NCBI GenBank assembly: GCA_030425925.1
Contig: JAUHZO010000005.1
Location: 202,306-266,305 of the forward strand
Length of the DNA stretch: 64,000 nt
Source of the DNA: Alphaproteobacteria bacterium
Lineage (GTDB): Bacteria; Pseudomonadota; Alphaproteobacteria; Rhodobacterales; Rhodobacteraceae
Direction of reading: 5' to 3'
This document shows positions 1-7,460 of the stretch, piece after piece. Both the position numbers and the translations under genes were made by a program. Position 1 is the first letter of the stretch. Each line of letters begins with the position of its first letter. A model generated the notes under the pieces. It was not told the origin of the DNA. It saw nothing but the letters and a program-made list of their open reading frames with translations, and made no database searches.

Positions 1-1298
1 ATGGAGGCATCATAGGTGACCTGTGCAGCCGGCGTGACCTCGACGATTTCGAGCAGGTCAAATTCCGAGGTCGGGTTTTCCTTGCCCTTCACCACGAGCA
101 CGTCCTTGAAGCACTGGTGGTCTTCGGCGCGGTAGAGGGTCGGGCCGTTGCCCATGCCGTCGAACTCGAAGCCTTCCAGCGCCTCGACAACCGCGCAGGG
201 GTTGAACGACCCGGCGCGCTCCACGGCGTCTGCATAGAGCAGGGCCTGGACGTAGCAGGTGTGTGCCGCCTGCGACGGCGGGAAGCCGTACTTGGTGCCG
301 AAGGACTTCACGAAGGCCTTGGTGCCCTCATCCTGCAGCGACCAGTGCCAGTTGGTCGAGCCGAAGATGCCCTTCACGTTCTCGCCCGCACCGCGTGCCA
401 TCAGGCGCGAGTAGAGCGGAACGATGATCTCGAAGTTCTTACCGTTCACCAGCTTGTCGCGCAGACCGAACTGGACCGCGTTGGTCAGCGAGTTCACCAT
501 GTTCCCGCCGTAATGGTTCAGGACCAGAACGTCGGCACCCGACTGCAGCACCGGGGCGATGTAGGACGAGAAGTCGGTCTGGGTCAGCGGCGTGCGCACG
601 GCGGCGACGGTTTCCCAGCCCAGGGCCTCGGTCGAGGTCTTGACCGCTTCCTCGGTGGTGTAGCCCCAGTTGTAGTCGGCGGTCAGGTGATAGGCCTTGC
701 GGTCATTGCCGTAGTTGGCGGCGAGGATCGGCGCAAGCGCGGCACCCGACATGTAGGAGTTGAAGAAATGGCGGAAGCCGTTTGCCTTCTTGTCCTTGCC
801 GGTGGTGTCGTTCGAGTGGGTCAGGCCCGCCATGAAGATCACGCCGGCTTCCTGGCAGAGCGCCTGCACGGCCACGGCCACGCCCGAGGACGAACCGCCG
901 GTGATCATCACCGCGCCGTCCTTTTCGATCATCGACTTGGCCGAGGCGCGGGCGGCGTCCGACTTGGTCTGGGTGTCGCCGGTGACGTATTCCACCTTCT
1001 TGCCCAGGATGCCGTTGCCCTGCAGGGCCTTCGACGAGAAGGTGTTCATCATGCCGCCGTCGCCTTCACCGTTCAGGTGCTCGACAGCCAGTTCGTAGGC
1101 GCGCAGTTCGTCGGCACCTTCGTCGGCATAGGGGCCCGACTGGGGCACGTTGAAGCCCAGCGTGACGGTGGACCCGGTGGGGGCGTTGGTAAAGCCCTCG
1201 TGGCCGGCGGCCGAAAGATAGGTCGGCAGCGCCAGGCCGGCCCCTGCAACGGCACCGGTTTTCAGGACGCCGCGGCGAGTCAGAGTGGTCTTGGACAT
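1..1298 (-). CDS. ABC transporter periplasmic substrate-binding protein, Tat-exported (partial, runs off left edge)
   Basis: This is a type-1 periplasmic binding protein of the branched-chain amino acid/urea/short-chain amide class (Peripla_BP_6-like). It captures a small solute in the periplasm for an ABC importer whose other subunits must lie left of the window. 432 codons are visible with no stop. The start is ATG at 1298 behind a strong GGAGG ribosome site. The N-terminus has a twin-arginine signal (TRRGVLK followed by an Ala/Gly/Leu-rich segment ending near ALPTYLSA), so export is probably by Tat. The mature part has the usual two-lobe pattern, with GGSSSG near the first ligand loop. It is divergent from the XRE short-chain fatty acyl regulator at 1517, which may control it. 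The substrate cannot be told from sequence; a short-chain carboxylate or amide is an inference from the neighbour. Confidence 0.85.
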   Translation of the reverse strand, partial: MSKTTLTRRGVLKTGAVAGAGLALPTYLSAAGHEGFTNAPTGSTVTLGFNVPQSGPYADEGADELRAYELAVEHLNGEGDGGMMNTFSSKALQGNGILGKKVEYVTGDTQTKSDAARASAKSMIEKDGAVMITGGSSSGVAVAVQALCQEAGVIFMAGLTHSNDTTGKDKKANGFRHFFNSYMSGAALAPILAANYGNDRKAYHLTADYNWGYTTEEAVKTSTEALGWETVAAVRTPLTQTDFSSYIAPVLQSGADVLVLNHYGGNMVNSLTNAVQFGLRDKLVNGKNFEIIVPLYSRLMARGAGENVKGIFGSTNWHWSLQDEGTKAFVKSFGTKYGFPPSQAAHTCYVQALLYADAVERAGSFNPCAVVEALEGFEFDGMGNGPTLYRAEDHQCFKDVLVVKGKENPTSEFDLLEIVEVTPAAQVTYDAS

Positions 1299-1359: not shown

Positions 1360-1446
1360 TTGTGCAAAAACAGTATCGCAGAGGCGGTGAAAAGCAGGCA
1401 ACAAGCGCTTTTGTCGCAAGGGTTTTTTGGTAAAGACTTGCAAAGT
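1360..1446. promoter_or_regulatory. Divergent promoter region with TTGCAAA-like motifs (possible XRE/ScfR operator)
   Basis: The 218 bp between the divergent genes hold ACTTGCAAAGT at 1436-1446, a dyad with arms ACTT/AAGT, and a related TTGTGCAAAAA at 1360-1370. RamB-type regulators of acetate metabolism are known to bind TTTGCAAA-like sequences, and a regulator of that family starts at 1517. Assigning these sites as operators is inference. Confidence 0.3.
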
Positions 1447-1516: not shown

Positions 1517-2815
1517 ATGGCGCGGGACACGCTTACGGGATCGCGGATCCGCGAACGGCGCATCGCGCTGGGGCTGCGGCAGGCGGCGCTTGCGCAGGCG
1601 GTGGGCATTTCCGCCTCGTATCTCAACCTGATCGAACACAACCGCCGCAGAATCGGCGGCAAGCTGCTGGTGGCAATCGCGCAGCGCCTGGGGGTCGAAC
1701 CGGCGCTGCTGAGCGAAGGCGCCGGTGCCGCGCTGATCGCCTCGCTGCGTGAGGCCGCCTCGGACCTGCCGCAGGCCGGGGCAGAGCTGGACCGGATCGA
1801 CGAATTCGCCGGGCGGTTCCCGGGCTGGGCGCAGCTTCTGGCCCAGAGCCGGACGCGCATCGCGGCGCTGGAGCGCAGTGTCGACGCCCTGACCGACCGG
1901 TTGACCCATGACCCGCATCTGGCGGCTTCGCTGCACGAGATGCTGTCGACGGTGACGGCGATCCGCTCGTCGGCCTCGATCCTGGCCGAACCCGGCGAGG
2001 TGGACCCGGAATGGCAGGCGCGCTTTCATCGCAACATCTACGAGGACAGCGCGCGGCTGGCCGACACGAGCCGCGCGCTGGTGGCCTATCTGGAGGCCGA
2101 CGAGACCACCGAGACCGCCACCGGCACCCCGCAGGAGGAACTGGACGCGTTGCAGGACCGCATCGGGCACCGGGTGGCGGAGCTTGAGGACGGGGCGGCC
2201 CCGGTCGAGGTGGCGGCACGGCTGGGCGCGGCGCTGACACCGCTGGCGCAGCAGATGCTGCGGGCCTGGCTCGATCGCTATGCCGCGGATGCCGCGGCGC
2301 TTCCGGCGGCGGCGCTGCGGCGGGCGGTGGCGGCGCAGGGGCTGGACCCCGGGCGGCTGTCGCAGGCGCTGGGATGCGATCCGGCACAGGTCATGCGGCG
2401 GCTTGCAGCCCTGCCGGATGCCGATGTGCCGCAGGCCGTGGGGCTTGCGATCTGCGACGCCTCTGGCGCGCTGACGTTCCGCAAGCCCTTGCCGGAGTTC
2501 CCGATGCCGCGGTTCGGGGCGGCCTGTCCGCTCTGGCCGCTTTACCAGGCGCTGAGCCGGCCGCATGTGATCCTGGCGCAGGCGCTGAGCGCAGCGGGTC
2601 GGCAGGGCGGCCCGTTCCGGGCCTATGCCGTGGCGCTGCCCTGCGGGCTGCCCGAAACCGGCTGCGAGCCGCGCTATCAGGCGCACATGCTGGTGACCGG
2701 GCCCGCCGATACGGGTGCGCTGCCGGTGGCCGAACTGGGCGTGTCCTGCCGCATCTGCCCGCGCCGGGACTGCCCGGCGCGGCGCGAGCCCACCATTCTG
2801 GCCGGCACGGCGTAA
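1517..2815 (+). CDS. XRE-family short-chain fatty acyl regulator (ScfR/RamB-like) with embedded DHp-like domain
   Basis: This is a 432-aa DNA-binding regulator. Residues 9-63 form a helix-turn-helix of the Cro/C1 type (SYLNLIEHNRR is the recognition region). The C-terminal 130 residues match the short-chain fatty acyl regulator domain (DUF2083), with a cysteine cluster C411, C414, C419. RamB relatives control acetate and propionate metabolism genes. No M78 peptidase-like domain is seen. Instead residues about 125-195 align with the HisKA/DHp domain of the kinase at 3582: L-H140-E141...T147-A-I149-R150 matches S-H-E...T-S-I-R, and a second helix containing EDSARL matches DESLRL. The ATG at 1517 follows an AAGGAAAG ribosome site. 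The gene is divergent from the binding protein and about 100 bp upstream of the REC gene. Family assignment is confident; the DHp-like reading is my alignment by eye. Confidence 0.85.
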   Translation: MARDTLTGSRIRERRIALGLRQAALAQAVGISASYLNLIEHNRRRIGGKLLVAIAQRLGVEPALLSEGAGAALIASLREAASDLPQAGAELDRIDEFAGRFPGWAQLLAQSRTRIAALERSVDALTDRLTHDPHLAASLHEMLSTVTAIRSSASILAEPGEVDPEWQARFHRNIYEDSARLADTSRALVAYLEADETTETATGTPQEELDALQDRIGHRVAELEDGAAPVEVAARLGAALTPLAQQMLRAWLDRYAADAAALPAAALRRAVAAQGLDPGRLSQALGCDPAQVMRRLAALPDADVPQAVGLAICDASGALTFRKPLPEFPMPRFGAACPLWPLYQALSRPHVILAQALSAAGRQGGPFRAYAVALPCGLPETGCEPRYQAHMLVTGPADTGALPVAELGVSCRICPRRDCPARREPTILAGTA

Positions 2816-2911
2816 CAGTCTTTTGACAGTGGTGGAATCTTGCGGGTAAAGTCCCCCTGACCACAGGTGAGAACGCCGCCCAACGGCGCGCCTGGGGGGA
2901 GGGGGAATGAC

Positions 2912-3280
2912 ATGGGCGGTCACGTTCTGCTGATCGAGGATGAACCGAACATCATCGAGGCGATCCGGTTCATCCTGTCGCGTGAAGGCTGGCGGGTGCA
3001 CACGCATTCCGACGGGCGCAGCGCCGTGGACGTGGTGCGGGAACGGGCCCCCGACGTGCTGATTCTCGACGTGATGCTGCCCGGCCGGTCGGGCTATGAC
3101 ATCCTGCGAGACCTGCGCGGCGATCCCGCCACCGCCGGGCTCAAGGTGCTGATGCTGACGGCGCGCGGGCAGAACCGCGATCGCGAAATGGCCGAGCAGG
3201 TGGGCGTCAACATGTTCATGACCAAGCCGTTCTCCAATGCCGAGGTGCTGGAGGCGGTGCGCACGTTGTCGGCCCCGTGA
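2912..3280 (+). CDS. REC-only (single-domain) response regulator
   Basis: This 122-aa protein consists of one receiver domain and no output domain. The key residues are present: acidic pair E9/D10, phospho-acceptor D53 in LILDVMLPG, T83 and K105 in MTKPF. It should receive phosphate from a histidine kinase and either pass it on or act by protein contact. I chose ATG 2912 because GGGGGAGGGGG sits just upstream; a GTG at 2867 in the same frame would add 15 residues with no homology. Its stop overlaps the start of the next gene (GTGA), and the SLC5-STAC kinase follows, so that kinase is the probable partner. CheY-like or Spo0F-like relay roles are both possible. Confidence 0.88.
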   Translation: MGGHVLLIEDEPNIIEAIRFILSREGWRVHTHSDGRSAVDVVRERAPDVLILDVMLPGRSGYDILRDLRGDPATAGLKVLMLTARGQNRDREMAEQVGVNMFMTKPFSNAEVLEAVRTLSAP

Positions 3281-3585
3281 GCGCGCCGGGCATGGCAGAC
3301 GACCCGGCAGACGAGTCCGGCCCCGTTCCGCTGTTTGTCGAGCGTCACACCTATCGGCGGCGGCGGCTTATGGATGCGATCCGCGCCCTGCCGGTGCTGG
3401 GCGTGGTGCTGTGGATGCTGCCGATGCTCTGGGCATTACCCGGCGCGGGAATGCGCGGAGCGGCGGCGCTGATCTATCTCTTTGCCGTCTGGATCGGCCT
3501 GATCGCCCTGGCCGGAGGTCTGCTTCTGGCCCTGCGCCTGTGGGAACGGCGCGCCGGACTGGACCACGGGGAGCGCGGGCGGTGA
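3277..3585 (+). CDS. Small two-TM membrane protein coupled to the SLC5-kinase
   Basis: This is a 102-aa protein with two hydrophobic helices (about residues 40-57 and 62-87) and a charged N-terminus with the run TYRRRR just before the first helix, so the N-terminus is likely cytoplasmic. It starts at a GTG overlapping the stop of the REC gene, with a possible ATG at 3292, and its TGA overlaps the GTG of the kinase gene. I do not recognise a named family. Small membrane partners are known for some SLC5-type transporters (DUF485/DUF4212), but the typical signatures of those are not seen here. Tight coupling on both sides suggests a subunit or accessory of the kinase-transporter. Confidence 0.7.
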   Translation: MSAPGMADDPADESGPVPLFVERHTYRRRRLMDAIRALPVLGVVLWMLPMLWALPGAGMRGAAALIYLFAVWIGLIALAGGLLLALRLWERRAGLDHGERGR

Positions 3586-6266
3586 CGACGCTCAACGGGC
3601 TGGCGGCGATCTCGGTCGCCTATGTGCTGCTGCTTTTCGCCGTGGCTTTCGTGGCCGAGCGTGTGGCCTGGCGCGGCCATGGCCGCTGGCTGAGCGCACC
3701 GGTCATCTATACGCTGTCGCTGTCGATCTATTGCACGGCATGGACATTCTACGGTGCCGTGGGCTCGGCCGCGCGCAACGGGTTCGAATACCTGACGATC
3801 TATCTTGGTCCTTCGCTGGTGATGATCGGCTGGTGGTGGGGGCTGCGCAAGCTGGTGCGGATCGGGCGCAGCAACCGCATCACCTCGATCGCCGACCTGC
3901 TGTCGTCGCGTTATGGCAAGTCCAACCTGCTGGGGATCGGGGTCACGATCCTCGCCGTGGTGGGCACCACACCCTATATCGCGCTCCAGCTGCAATCGGT
4001 GACGCTGAGCGTCGAGGCCTTTGCCAGCGTCGATCCCGAAACCGCCGGACAGGGGCGTCATACCGCGCTTTGGGTGGCGCTGGGGCTGGCGCTGTTCACG
4101 GTGATCTTCGGTACCCGGAGTCTCGATGCCAACGAACGCCATCACGGGGTGGTCATGGCCATCGCGGTCGAGGCGGTGGTCAAGCTGGCGGCGCTGCTGG
4201 CGGTGGGGGTGTTCGTGGTCTGGGGGCTGTCGGGCGGCGTGGGGGCCACGCTGGCCCGCATCGACGCCTCGCCGCTGGCCGACTGGACGGTGCCCGGCGG
4301 GCGCTGGGCGGGGCTTACTCTGCTGTCGGCCGCCGCCTTCCTCTGCCTGCCGCGCATGTTCCAGGTGCTGGTGGTCGAGAACGACAACGACGCGCAGCTG
4401 CGCATGGCCGCCTGGGCCTTTCCGCTGTACCTGATGCTGATGAGCCTGTTCATCGTGCCGATTGCGGTGGTCGGGCTCGAGATGCTGCCGCCGGGCAGCA
4501 ATCCCGACCTGTTCGTGCTGACACTGCCCCTGTCGCAGGGCCGGGACGGGCTGGCGGTGATGTCGTTCCTGGGCGGGTTCAGCTCGGCCACCTCGATGGT
4601 GATCGTCGCCGCGATTGCGCTGTCGACGATGGTGTCGAACCACGTGGTCATGCCGCTCTGGCTGCATTACCGCGAAGGCGGGGCCAGCGTGTCCGGGGAT
4701 GTGCGCAACGTGGTGTTGCTGTCGCGGCGTCTGTCCATCGCCGGGGTGCTGGCGCTGGGCTACCTGTATTACAAGCTGTCGGGCGGCGGCGAGGCGCTGG
4801 CGGTGATCGGGCTGGTGTCGTTCACCGGGGTGGCGCAGGTGCTGCCGGCGATGATGGCGGGGCTGTTCTGGCGCGGGGCGACGCGCAACGGGGCGCTGGC
4901 GGGGCTGTCGGTGGGGTTTGCGGTGTGGCTTTACACGCTGTACCTGCCCAGCCTCGGAACCGGCTCGGTGCTGCCGCCATCGTTCTTTTCCGAAGGGCCG
5001 CTGGGCCTGGCCTGGCTGCGGCCCGATGCGCTGTTCGGGATCGGCGGGCTGGATCCGCTGATGCATGCGGTGTTGTGGAGCCTGCTGCTAAACACGCTGG
5101 TGTTCTTCACCGTCTCGCTGCTCAGCTTCCCGTCGCCGCTGGAGCGGCTGCAGGGGGCGCAATTCGTCAGCATCCAGCAGACCCCGGGCCGGGCGCGGCG
5201 CTGGACCGGCGGCGTGGCCGAGGCCGAAGACCTGATGGTGATGACCCAGCGCATCCTTGGCGCGCCCGAGGCGCACGCACTGTTCCTGCGCGAGGCGCAG
5301 AAACAGGGCATGCCGGGCCCGCTGCCCGAACCCACCGCCGATTTCCTGGAAACGCTGGAGCGCGAGCTGGCCGGATCGGTTGGGGCGGCAACGGCCCATG
5401 CCATGGTCAGCCAGATTGTCGGGGGATCGGCCGTGTCGGTCGAGGACCTGATGGCGGTGGCGGACGAGACCCAGCAGATGGTGGAATACTCCGCCCGGCT
5501 GGAGGCGCAATCGCAGGAACTGACCCGCACCGCGCGGCAGCTGCGCGAGGCCAACCGCAAGCTGACCCAGCTTTCCGTGCAGAAGGACGCCTTTCTCAGC
5601 CAGATCAGCCACGAATTGCGCACGCCCATGACCTCGATCCGGGCGTTTTCCGAAATCCTGCGCGATGGCGACGGGCTGGGGCCGGAAGAGCAGACGCGCT
5701 ATGCCTCGATCATCCATGACGAATCGCTGCGCCTGACCCGGTTGCTGGACGATCTGCTGGATCTCAGCGTGCTCGAGAACGGCCAGGTCAGCCTGAACAT
5801 GCGCGACGGACGGCTGTCGGACCTGCTGGACCGCGCGGTCGCTGCGGCGGCGGCCAGTGACGAGGGCAGCGGGCTGAGGATCGTGCGGGTCGAGGCGGAT
5901 GAAGACCACTGGCTTTACACCGATATCGACCGGCTGAGCCAGGTGTTCATCAACCTCATCGCCAATGCGCGCAAGTATTGCGATGCCGACGCGCCCAGCC
6001 TGGAGATCCGCGTCTGCGAAGAGGGCGGAGACCTGGTGATCGACTTTATCGACAACGGCACCGGCGTCGCCACCGAGGCGCAGGAGATGATCTTCGAGAA
6101 ATTCGCCCGTGTGAGCGACCGCGAGGCCGGGGGGGCCGGGCTGGGGCTGGCGATCTCGCGCCAGATCATGACCCGGCTGGGCGGGGCGATCAGCTATCTG
6201 CCGGGGCAGGGCGGCGCGGCCTTCCGCGTGGTTCTGCCGCAGGCCGCGGCCCTGGCGGCGCAATAA
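3582..6266 (+). CDS. SLC5 (Na+/solute symporter)-STAC-histidine kinase, CrbS-like
   Basis: This is an 894-aa inner-membrane sensor. Residues about 1-516 form the multi-helix sodium:solute symporter (SSS/SLC5) domain. Residues about 545-625 fit the STAC linker, and a coiled coil (about 630-670) leads into HisKA with H677 in SHELRTP. A HATPase_c domain with DNGTG and GGAGLGLAIS motifs completes it. Relatives such as CrbS of Vibrio and Pseudomonas sense acetate and switch on acetyl-CoA synthetase; a PAS domain is not evident here. The start is GTG 3582, overlapping the previous stop as GTGA; an upstream ATG in frame at 3237 would add 115 residues translated from inside other genes and is rejected. 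Partners are likely the REC protein and perhaps the XRE regulator. A short-chain carboxylate ligand is inference from family and context. Confidence 0.9.
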   Translation: MTTLNGLAAISVAYVLLLFAVAFVAERVAWRGHGRWLSAPVIYTLSLSIYCTAWTFYGAVGSAARNGFEYLTIYLGPSLVMIGWWWGLRKLVRIGRSNRITSIADLLSSRYGKSNLLGIGVTILAVVGTTPYIALQLQSVTLSVEAFASVDPETAGQGRHTALWVALGLALFTVIFGTRSLDANERHHGVVMAIAVEAVVKLAALLAVGVFVVWGLSGGVGATLARIDASPLADWTVPGGRWAGLTLLSAAAFLCLPRMFQVLVVENDNDAQLRMAAWAFPLYLMLMSLFIVPIAVVGLEMLPPGSNPDLFVLTLPLSQGRDGLAVMSFLGGFSSATSMVIVAAIALSTMVSNHVVMPLWLHYREGGASVSGDVRNVVLLSRRLSIAGVLALGYLYYKLSGGGEALAVIGLVSFTGVAQVLPAMMAGLFWRGATRNGALAGLSVGFAVWLYTLYLPSLGTGSVLPPSFFSEGPLGLAWLRPDALFGIGGLDPLMHAVLWSLLLNTLVFFTVSLLSFPSPLERLQGAQFVSIQQTPGRARRWTGGVAEAEDLMVMTQRILGAPEAHALFLREAQKQGMPGPLPEPTADFLETLERELAGSVGAATAHAMVSQIVGGSAVSVEDLMAVADETQQMVEYSARLEAQSQELTRTARQLREANRKLTQLSVQKDAFLSQISHELRTPMTSIRAFSEILRDGDGLGPEEQTRYASIIHDESLRLTRLLDDLLDLSVLENGQVSLNMRDGRLSDLLDRAVAAAAASDEGSGLRIVRVEADEDHWLYTDIDRLSQVFINLIANARKYCDADAPSLEIRVCEEGGDLVIDFIDNGTGVATEAQEMIFEKFARVSDREAGGAGLGLAISRQIMTRLGGAISYLPGQGGAAFRVVLPQAAALAAQ

Positions 6267-6347: not shown

Positions 6348-7460
6348 ATGTCAGGGCAGGATGCGCGACAGGACGTTCTGGGCCGCAAGGCGGACGCGGC
6401 GCAGCGCGCGTTCGAGGCGCGCGGCATGTCGCCGTCCAAGGCGCTGCGCCGGGCGTTGTCCCGCACCGCCGACGTGTTGTGGGATCTGGCCCTCGTGGTG
6501 CACGGCGTCTCGGTGGATCTGCTTGACCAGGACGGGGTGACCGCCTCGCTGGGCGAGGATGATCTGCTGGTGTTGCTGGACGGCCCTGACGGCGCCACCG
6601 GTTTCGCCGCGCTGGACCGGCAGGTCCTGACCGGCCTTGTCGAGGTGCAGACGATCCAGCAGGTCACCTCGATGCCCGTGGACGAACGTGCGCTGACGGC
6701 CACGGATGCCGCGATGGTTGCGCCGATGCTGGATGGCACGATGGCGCGCTTTGCCGAAAATCTTGACGAACACCCGCTCCGGGCCGAGCTTGAGGGGTTT
6801 CGCTTTGGCGCCATGGTCGAAGACCGGCGGATGGTGGCGCTGATTCTGGATGCCGCGCAATACCGCGCGTTTCGCGCCGATCTGGACCTTGCGCTGGGCC
6901 GCCGCCGCGGGACGCTGTCGCTGATCCTGCCGGAACGGCGCGCCACCCGCGCAGGTGCCGCCGGTCAACCCGGCGCGCCCGGCCCGCACGAGGCGCTGTT
7001 CAAGGCGGTGCCGGTGCGGCTGGAGACCGTTCTGGCGCGGGTCAGCATGCCGCTGCGCGCCGCCTCGCGGCTGCGCCCGGGCGACGTGCTGCCGCTGACG
7101 CAGGATTGCATCGACCGGGCCGAGCTGCGCACCGGCTCTGGCCAGCTGGTGGCCCGGGGACGGTTCGGCCAGTTGATGGGGATGCGCGCGGTGCGGATCA
7201 ACTGGCCCTGCACGGCGGCCCCGGCCATGGCCGCCGATGCCGCAAATGCAGCCGAAACGCCCGCGCCGGATACACCACCGCCGCCCGAACCCACGCCCGA
7301 GGCACCGCAGGCCGCCCTGCCCGATCTTGTGCCGGACCCTCCGGCGGACGACGCCATTCCAGAGGGAGAGGACTTTCCCGATCTGCCGCCGCTCGATTTC
7401 GAAACCGAGATGGCGGAATTCGACGGGCTGGCGGATTTCGAAACCGTCGAGGAAAGCTGA
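6348..7460 (+). CDS. FliM/SctQ-like SpoA-domain protein, not in a flagellar locus
   Basis: This 370-aa protein has a middle region (about 30-190) resembling the FliM/YscQ middle domain, with LLVLLDGPDGATGFAALD. Residues about 221-285 form a SpoA (FliM_C/FliN) domain with VPVRLETVLARVSMPL and the RPGDVLPL turn. An acidic, proline-rich tail of about 80 residues ends it. SpoA proteins build the C-ring of flagella and type III secretion machines, but no flagellar or secretion gene is nearby. It lies 81 bp after the kinase gene on the same strand and may be cotranscribed. The ribosome site before ATG 6348 is weak. Role unknown; the fold assignment is good, and a signalling link to the kinase is inference. 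Confidence 0.8.
   Translation: MSGQDARQDVLGRKADAAQRAFEARGMSPSKALRRALSRTADVLWDLALVVHGVSVDLLDQDGVTASLGEDDLLVLLDGPDGATGFAALDRQVLTGLVEVQTIQQVTSMPVDERALTATDAAMVAPMLDGTMARFAENLDEHPLRAELEGFRFGAMVEDRRMVALILDAAQYRAFRADLDLALGRRRGTLSLILPERRATRAGAAGQPGAPGPHEALFKAVPVRLETVLARVSMPLRAASRLRPGDVLPLTQDCIDRAELRTGSGQLVARGRFGQLMGMRAVRINWPCTAAPAMAADAANAAETPAPDTPPPPEPTPEAPQAALPDLVPDPPADDAIPEGEDFPDLPPLDFETEMAEFDGLADFETVEES

Follow-up and report, generated by a model that had tools for sequence, protein, structure and literature searches.

How a DNA-binding regulator of the short-chain fatty acyl type came to carry what resembles the dimerisation and histidine phosphotransfer (DHp) hairpin of a sensor kinase, and what such a hairpin could do there, is the question raised by a locus in a Rhodobacteraceae genome (Alphaproteobacteria bacterium, assembly GCA_030425925.1, contig JAUHZO010000005.1, positions 202,306 to 266,305), which was analyzed as a window of 64,000 nucleotides. 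In most of the related genomes examined, this regulator (REG) shares a gene group with a transporter-like histidine kinase (HK) and a stand-alone receiver (REC). The reading towards which we lean, by a little, is that REG is a short-chain fatty acyl regulator (ScfR) with an inserted DHp domain, which would be controlled by the neighbouring kinase through REC to His140. The features that bear on this reading directly are the following:

1517-2815, plus strand: REG, XRE-DHp-ScfRs regulator of 432 residues
1547-1708, plus strand: HTH_3 DNA-binding domain of REG, residues 11-64 (Pfam)
1820-1909, plus strand: long linker helix leading to the DHp, residues 102-131 (structure model)
1913-2107, plus strand: predicted HisKA-type DHp hairpin, residues 133-197 (profile matches, structure model)
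1934-1936, plus strand: codon of His140, the predicted phospho-acceptor (invariance in alignments)
2123-2812, plus strand: PrpR-like C-terminal part with the ScfRs domain and four conserved cysteines (337, 411, 414 and 419)
2867-3280, plus strand: REC, stand-alone receiver of 137 residues (Pfam; Response_reg is the sole match above cut-off)
3582-6266, plus strand: HK, SLC5-STAC-type sensor histidine kinase of 894 residues (HisKA 668-734, HATPase_c 781-887)
5610-5612, plus strand: codon of His677 of HK, the residue called H677 in the preliminary description of this DNA

REG falls within the definition of the ScfR family (PF09856), with 51.7 bits for ScfRs against a cut-off of 24 and 47.3 for HTH_3 against 23, and its residues 133-197 are, judging from the sequence, a HisKA-type DHp hairpin. 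When a profile of this region was compared with the PDB, HK853 came out on top (E 8e-5) with histidine placed on histidine, and hhalign aligned the REG DHp with that of the cassette kinase at a probability of 98.8 and a score of 87, again His on His, the maximum among 30 column-shuffled controls being 19. At E up to 0.1, the Pfam model HisKA (PF00512) matched 22 of the 85 orthologues taken at full length and, among 71 cut DHp pieces, 32 (best 6.8e-11); the window's own piece gave E 0.058 and 13.9 bits, under the Pfam cut-off of 26.9. The NCBIfam model of the kinase CreC matched REG residues 117-196 (E 1.1e-5) with 24.5 bits, far under its curated cut-off of 356, and one orthologue (P0111) carries the source name 'sensory histidine kinase CreC'. 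A chance resemblance to HisKA was excluded by the PDB profile match, the HisKA matches and the hhalign score relative to the shuffles.

The structure model of REG contains helices at residues 102-131, 133-157 and 164-197, with a mean predicted local distance difference test (pLDDT) score of 88 overall and block means of 62-92 across residues 121-200. A Foldseek search with the isolated hairpin ranked HK853 first but weakly (E 0.04), and fold matching was dropped as proof: the best Z of 9.8 (HK853, 12.1 Å over 86 residues) was equalled by unrelated helical hairpins, for which reason the fold match is kept out of the evidence. The preliminary description had aligned REG residues 125-195 by eye with the HisKA domain of the downstream kinase, and this likeness is borne out, with the pairs H140-E141/H677-E678, T147/T684, I149-R150/I686-R687 and EDSARL/DESLRL all in register in an ungapped profile alignment of REG and HK over 62 columns; the model helices, the HK853 profile match and hhalign alike point to a DHp-type hairpin. 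It had also stated that REG is devoid of an ATPase domain and REC of an output domain. Both statements hold, as HATPase_c has no Pfam match in REG at E up to 1, so that REG does not classify as a histidine kinase, and Response_reg alone exceeds its cut-off in REC. The DHp of REG is followed by the PrpR-like fold and by no ATPase-like domain. No Hpt family was present among the matches listed (the best 25 of 54 and of 45 families), and no further Hpt test was made. Just ahead of the DHp, His131-Asp132-Pro133 is invariant in 110 of 110 REGs.

ScfR paralogues of two other orders (L185-L197, of which L197 is a fragment, and L221-L225) align to REG except over the hairpin, which they lack; these paralogues show the DHp to be an insertion. 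Beyond the hairpin, the cysteines of the PrpR-type cluster are kept in the REG family (C337 and C411-X2-C414-X4-C419, each in 84 of 85 sequences), the four positions being the ligands of the PrpR [4Fe4S] cluster according to passages of PMC6765138. Part of the PrpR region that precedes the C-terminal fold is missing from REG, and acyl-CoA binding may therefore be lost. A Peptidase_M78 (IrrE-like) domain is present in 31 of the 85 REG orthologues (rows unlisted); the 85 rows include 33 of the longer proteins, which come from other loci. The sequences suggest that the DHp graft likely came before the shortening in the window's family.

Besides the window's family, the orders to which genomes G613, G433 and G757 belong also contain regulators bearing the DHp; the families of these genomes differ from that of the window. 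Outside the class, a sample of 398 genomes of the phylum gave no match covering the DHp among the matches listed; eight genomes of other classes had matches that proved to be plain ScfRs, reaching model positions only from about 194 on, again among the matches listed. Plain ScfRs are also counted in the 51 of 385 genomes with a match in the class-wide search and in the 372 of 394 genomes of the family, neither of which is a count of the DHp-type regulator. Four distant regulators (L173, L168, L174 and L176) have a rather kinase-like H-box (HELRTF in L173); no binding-protein gene was found beside any of them, and in L168 and L174 the kinase gene lies on the opposite strand.

The inserted domain is closest to that of the kinase encoded beside it. 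When the DHp profile was searched against ten genomes, the top match after REG was the SLC5-STAC-type kinase of the cassette in all ten (E 8.5e-18 to 1.8e-12), every other match being at E 1.9e-9 or worse. In a tree of DHp sequences, most regulator copies stand beside cassette kinases with weak support, and one other stretch (L242, which has no His) groups among the regulator and cassette-kinase copies.

His140 appears to follow the receiver gene. The 80 named loci considered here were the top-ranking ones of 568 that passed and thus lean toward near relatives; to these were added 40 loci with flanks from the class-wide search and six more, giving 43 distinct ones after repeats had been removed (L227-L229 repeat the genes of L160, L161 and L171). 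A locus was called receiver-adjacent if REC lies within 2.2 kb of REG, start to start; this applies to 33 of the additional loci, which represent 30 distinct ones, including one (L181) of the window's own family. The preliminary description had made its proposal depend on conservation of H140 in orthologues of the same neighbourhood, and this was found: all 110 aligned REGs have the residue, and His is kept in all 108 distinct receiver-adjacent loci (78 named ones, a further one from the window's family and 29 from other families). The alignments A1 (85 rows) and A2 (71 rows) exclude the His-less L166, L167, L175 and L177-L180, so that an invariant H there reflects the choice of rows.

Fifteen distinct loci have no REC within 2.2 kb, and seven of them have replaced the His (F in four, Q in two, Y in one) while retaining the rest of the hairpin. 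A search of two whole orders found 23 loci with F, all in one genus, and 3 with Q, and REC was not found in the stretch examined of any of these 26, six of which repeat the seven His-less ones. In a tree of 59 sequences, the His was lost twice (in a Q clade and in an F+Y clade, each with an ultrafast bootstrap of 100), both times in regulators that lie away from the REC-HK gene pair; in the five genomes with a His-less regulator that were looked at, REC and HK stand side by side elsewhere.

Residues around the acceptor were also compared. According to PMC3510030, HisKA proteins need the acid at H+1 for kinase and not for phosphatase activity, and a T/N for phosphatase and not for kinase activity. 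The H+1 acid is present in 2 of the 29 distinct receiver-adjacent REGs of other families, whereas all 29 have S, T or N at H+4, as do 77 of the 78 named loci (S 68, T 9, G 1). In the window's near relatives, residue 141 is E in 107 and D in 3 of 110. The Pro of the HExxTP motif is absent from the regulators of all 123 distinct loci, and the H, E, T and P of this motif are kept in 108 of 108 cassette kinases. Since REG has no ATPase domain and the H+1 acid is mostly lost outside the window's family, autophosphorylation of REG is not expected, and by its sequence REG could at most receive phosphate. The phosphorylation residues of REC are kept (D25 and D68 in 118 of 118 aligned receivers, T98 and K120 in 117 of 118), from which it follows by family rules that REC can presumably be phosphorylated. 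A solved precedent for transfer from P-Asp to a DHp His is Spo0F to Spo0B, as given in passages of PMC5231405.

The remaining features of the locus are:

1-1298, minus strand: gene for an ABC-transporter substrate-binding protein (Peripla_BP_6), divergent from REG and extending beyond the window start
Window 1-1298 and positions 3896-11204 of L286 (genomic sequence surrounding the start of the window), minus strand: ABC operon of the LIV type, including acetate-CoA ligase
1362-1404, plus strand: conserved, two-part operator-like element GTGCAAA..CAnTAT....GAAAA....GCAA between the divergent genes
3277-3585, plus strand: small protein of 102 residues, by eye a membrane protein, overlapping REC and HK by 4 nucleotides each

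The genes of REG, REC, the 102-residue protein and HK all point in one direction, and the order of regulator, receiver, small membrane protein and kinase is found in 78 of the 80 named loci. REC is present in 80 of the 80 and HK in 79, the remaining locus meeting a contig edge 378 bases past REG; among the further loci, HK is present in 30 of 40. An in-frame ATG at 2912 seems by eye a likelier start of REC than 2867. In L056, about 1.2-1.3 kb of additional DNA separates the REG and REC genes. In its position the 102-residue protein recalls CbrX of Pseudomonas putida, which is translated in coupling with CbrA (passages of PMC6591292), and a FliMN_C/SctQ-like protein is encoded at 6348-7460, immediately downstream of HK. 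Residues 4-610 of HK match the solved chain 10ed_A, deposited as 'histidine kinase' (E 8e-70), which together with the Pfam matches makes HK a transporter part fused to HisKA and HATPase_c. The assignment of HK to the SLC5-STAC type is consistent with this match; no SLC5 or STAC model was among the HK matches listed in the Pfam and NCBIfam scans, and STAC was named by eye and in the preliminary description.

The divergent operon encodes the Peripla_BP_6 binding protein, two LIV-type permeases, two ATPases and here also an acetate-CoA ligase (TIGR02188, 1004 bits against a cut-off of 725). The binding-protein gene lies next to REG and divergent from it in 65 of the 80 named loci, being overlapped by over-long frames in a further 4, and in 39 of the 43 other distinct loci, or 42 of 46 when repeats are counted. 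A search for a published, fitness-based substrate of the ABC transporter found none. Upstream of REG, GTGCAAA is present in 61 of 80 regions, the consensus of the element being drawn from 64 occurrences; the element sits 155-166 nucleotides before REG in the ten matches listed, and the longer pattern occurs once in the window and in none of 100 shuffles. The element at 1362-1404 is a candidate operator that REG may bind.

Under the proposed relay, HK would phosphorylate the stand-alone REC, and phospho-REC would dock on the DHp of REG and hand the phosphoryl group to His140. Phosphorylated His140 would then alter the dimer geometry of the linker helix and hence the helix-turn-helix domain, the target presumably being the divergent ABC-transporter/acetate-CoA-ligase operon; from the sequences we infer the docking, the phosphorylation of His140 and the effect on DNA binding. 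HK would sense acetate or a related short-chain carboxylate, a likely signal by analogy with CrbS acting on acs, and the system probably serves the uptake of acetate or another short-chain carboxylate. A relay through His140 is favoured because in each of the ten genomes searched the DHp most like that of REG belongs to the kinase of its own cassette, and because the His is lost only in loci whose regulator lies away from the receiver gene. With these two points and the conservation of H140, the relay from kinase to receiver to His140 proposed in the preliminary description stands as the best model, and its last step, from REC to His140, as a prediction. The chances seem evenly balanced for the fuller account, by which a one-component factor was turned into a pathway end point by grafting the kinase's own DHp, yielding a His-Asp-His relay that ends on the histidine of a DNA-binding protein in several alphaproteobacterial orders, the His being lost and the hairpin kept when the regulator leaves the receiver-kinase group.

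Several observations weigh against the relay. Eight of the 15 loci without REC within 2.2 kb still keep the His, with REC at 2.7-3.0 kb (L051, L056), at 3.4-5.7 kb (L146, L151, L168, L174) or absent from the locus (L157, L163); L051 exceeds 2.2 kb only through a stop-to-stop frame, its receiver actually lying 33 bases after REG, L157 has its receiver (a 140-residue frame) elsewhere in the genome, and for L163 no receiver was found within about 8 kb. The coupling argument is backed by two loss events only, and the DHp tree, with 65 columns, is weakly supported. At the REC-specificity positions taken from HK853 (H+8, +11, +15, +34 and +37; titles of PDB entries 4jav and 4jau), regulators were compared with the 34 of 40 other DHp stretches that have a His in the column, and the outcome is mixed overall and is not counted as support: for 4 of 10 regulators, 19-24 of the 34 unrelated kinases equal the cassette kinase, for 2 of 10, 2 of the 34 match equally, and for the remaining 4, none. 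An acs gene was seen upstream in just 24 of the 80 named and 4 of the 40 further loci, and some of these stretches do not extend far enough to contain one. E141 is kept in the window and its near relatives, so that loss of the kinase acid is not general, and the S/T/N kept at H+4 fits a phosphatase role too.

That last point leads to an alternative which we regard as unlikely, namely that the DHp binds phospho-REC and thereby shifts DNA binding, or removes the phosphate from REC, while His140 itself is not stably phosphorylated. The phosphatase residue at H+4 (PMC3510030), present in all 29 other-family and 77 of 78 named loci, and the resemblance of the domain to that of the cassette kinase would both suit it; a pure phosphatase, however, need not keep the His, as the HisKA_3 kinase DesK retains phosphatase activity with His188 changed (passages of PMC5231405), whereas the His of REG is strictly kept in receiver-adjacent loci and lost in uncoupled ones with the domain remaining. 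The high similarity of the two DHp domains would equally allow the ATPase domain of HK to phosphorylate His140 directly in a mixed DHp dimer, with REC as a sink or a separate branch. E141, which supports kinase chemistry, is kept in near relatives, and in L157 the kinase adjoins the regulator with no receiver between them; but that genome has a receiver elsewhere, in the named loci REC separates the regulator from the kinase (78 of 80 keep the order), and the acid needed for phosphorylation from ATP is missing in 27 of the 29 receiver-adjacent loci of other families. We regard this route as very improbable. It would be just as surprising if the hairpin were a structural relic, a mere dimerisation bundle with no connection to the kinase, in a one-component regulator that senses acyl-CoA. 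The His-less versions do retain the hairpin, the C-terminal part retains the four cysteines of the PrpR [4Fe4S] cluster (PMC6765138, in the passages mentioned above), and the divergent binding-protein gene stays beside the regulator in all seven His-less loci, where receiver and kinase do not; yet a bundle has no evident need for an invariant His in H-box register, this His follows the receiver gene, and REC and HK are in the gene group in 79 of the 80 named loci.

The proposed relay can be compared with known systems. Spo0B and ChpT hand the phosphate on to another receiver, and in Spo0B the DHp is followed by an ATPase-like C-terminal domain. Their likeness to REG lies in a DHp hairpin whose conserved His is used with a receiver, as predicted for REG (passages of PMC5231405 and PMC3433190). 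ChpT also has an ATPase-like C-terminal domain after its DHp (passages of PMC3433190), whereas the DHp of REG lies inside a DNA-binding protein, is followed by the PrpR-like fold without an ATPase-like domain and would be an end point. The acetate system CrbS/CrbR, CbrA/CbrB and RpuS/RpuR, with their SLC5-STAC kinases, share the transporter-kinase sensor and the link to acetyl-CoA synthetase, acs here being in the divergent operon; in gammaproteobacteria, CrbS controls acs via CrbR, a LuxR-family response regulator (passages of PMC5715377), whereas REC is devoid of an output domain and it is the DNA-binding protein that bears a DHp. Pden_1785 and Pden_2985 of Paracoccus denitrificans are described in passages of PMC10370305 as two further members of the ScfR network, one of them beside two-component genes, and are then set aside, those passages naming no kinase-like domain or function; from this description alone, one of the two is probably a REG orthologue. 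Passages on XrpA of Cereibacter (PMC11999139) and on XRE factors of Caulobacter (PMC10688885) show no link to REG, and no description of a DHp inside a DNA-binding regulator was found among the papers listed by the literature searches (titles, starts of abstracts and passages, with subscription papers mostly outside). From the known ScfRs (RamB, PrpR/MccR and PccR; PF09856), REG is set apart by a DHp some 65 residues long that follows the linker as an insertion, by the absence of a portion of the PrpR region ahead of the C-terminal fold, and by its gene group with kinase and receiver.

In the usual two-component output, a receiver domain is fused to a DNA-binding domain, and a relay that ends on a histidine such as His140 would be an unusual end point. 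If the proposed relay is true, the usual order is reversed, with the receiver serving as a shuttle and the DNA-binding protein bearing the acceptor histidine, and the natural His-less relatives (Q, F, Y) are ready-made controls. One domain graft would then have placed a metabolite-sensing one-component regulator under a membrane sensor, and a widespread alphaproteobacterial group of transporter-like kinases would have an output open to direct testing.

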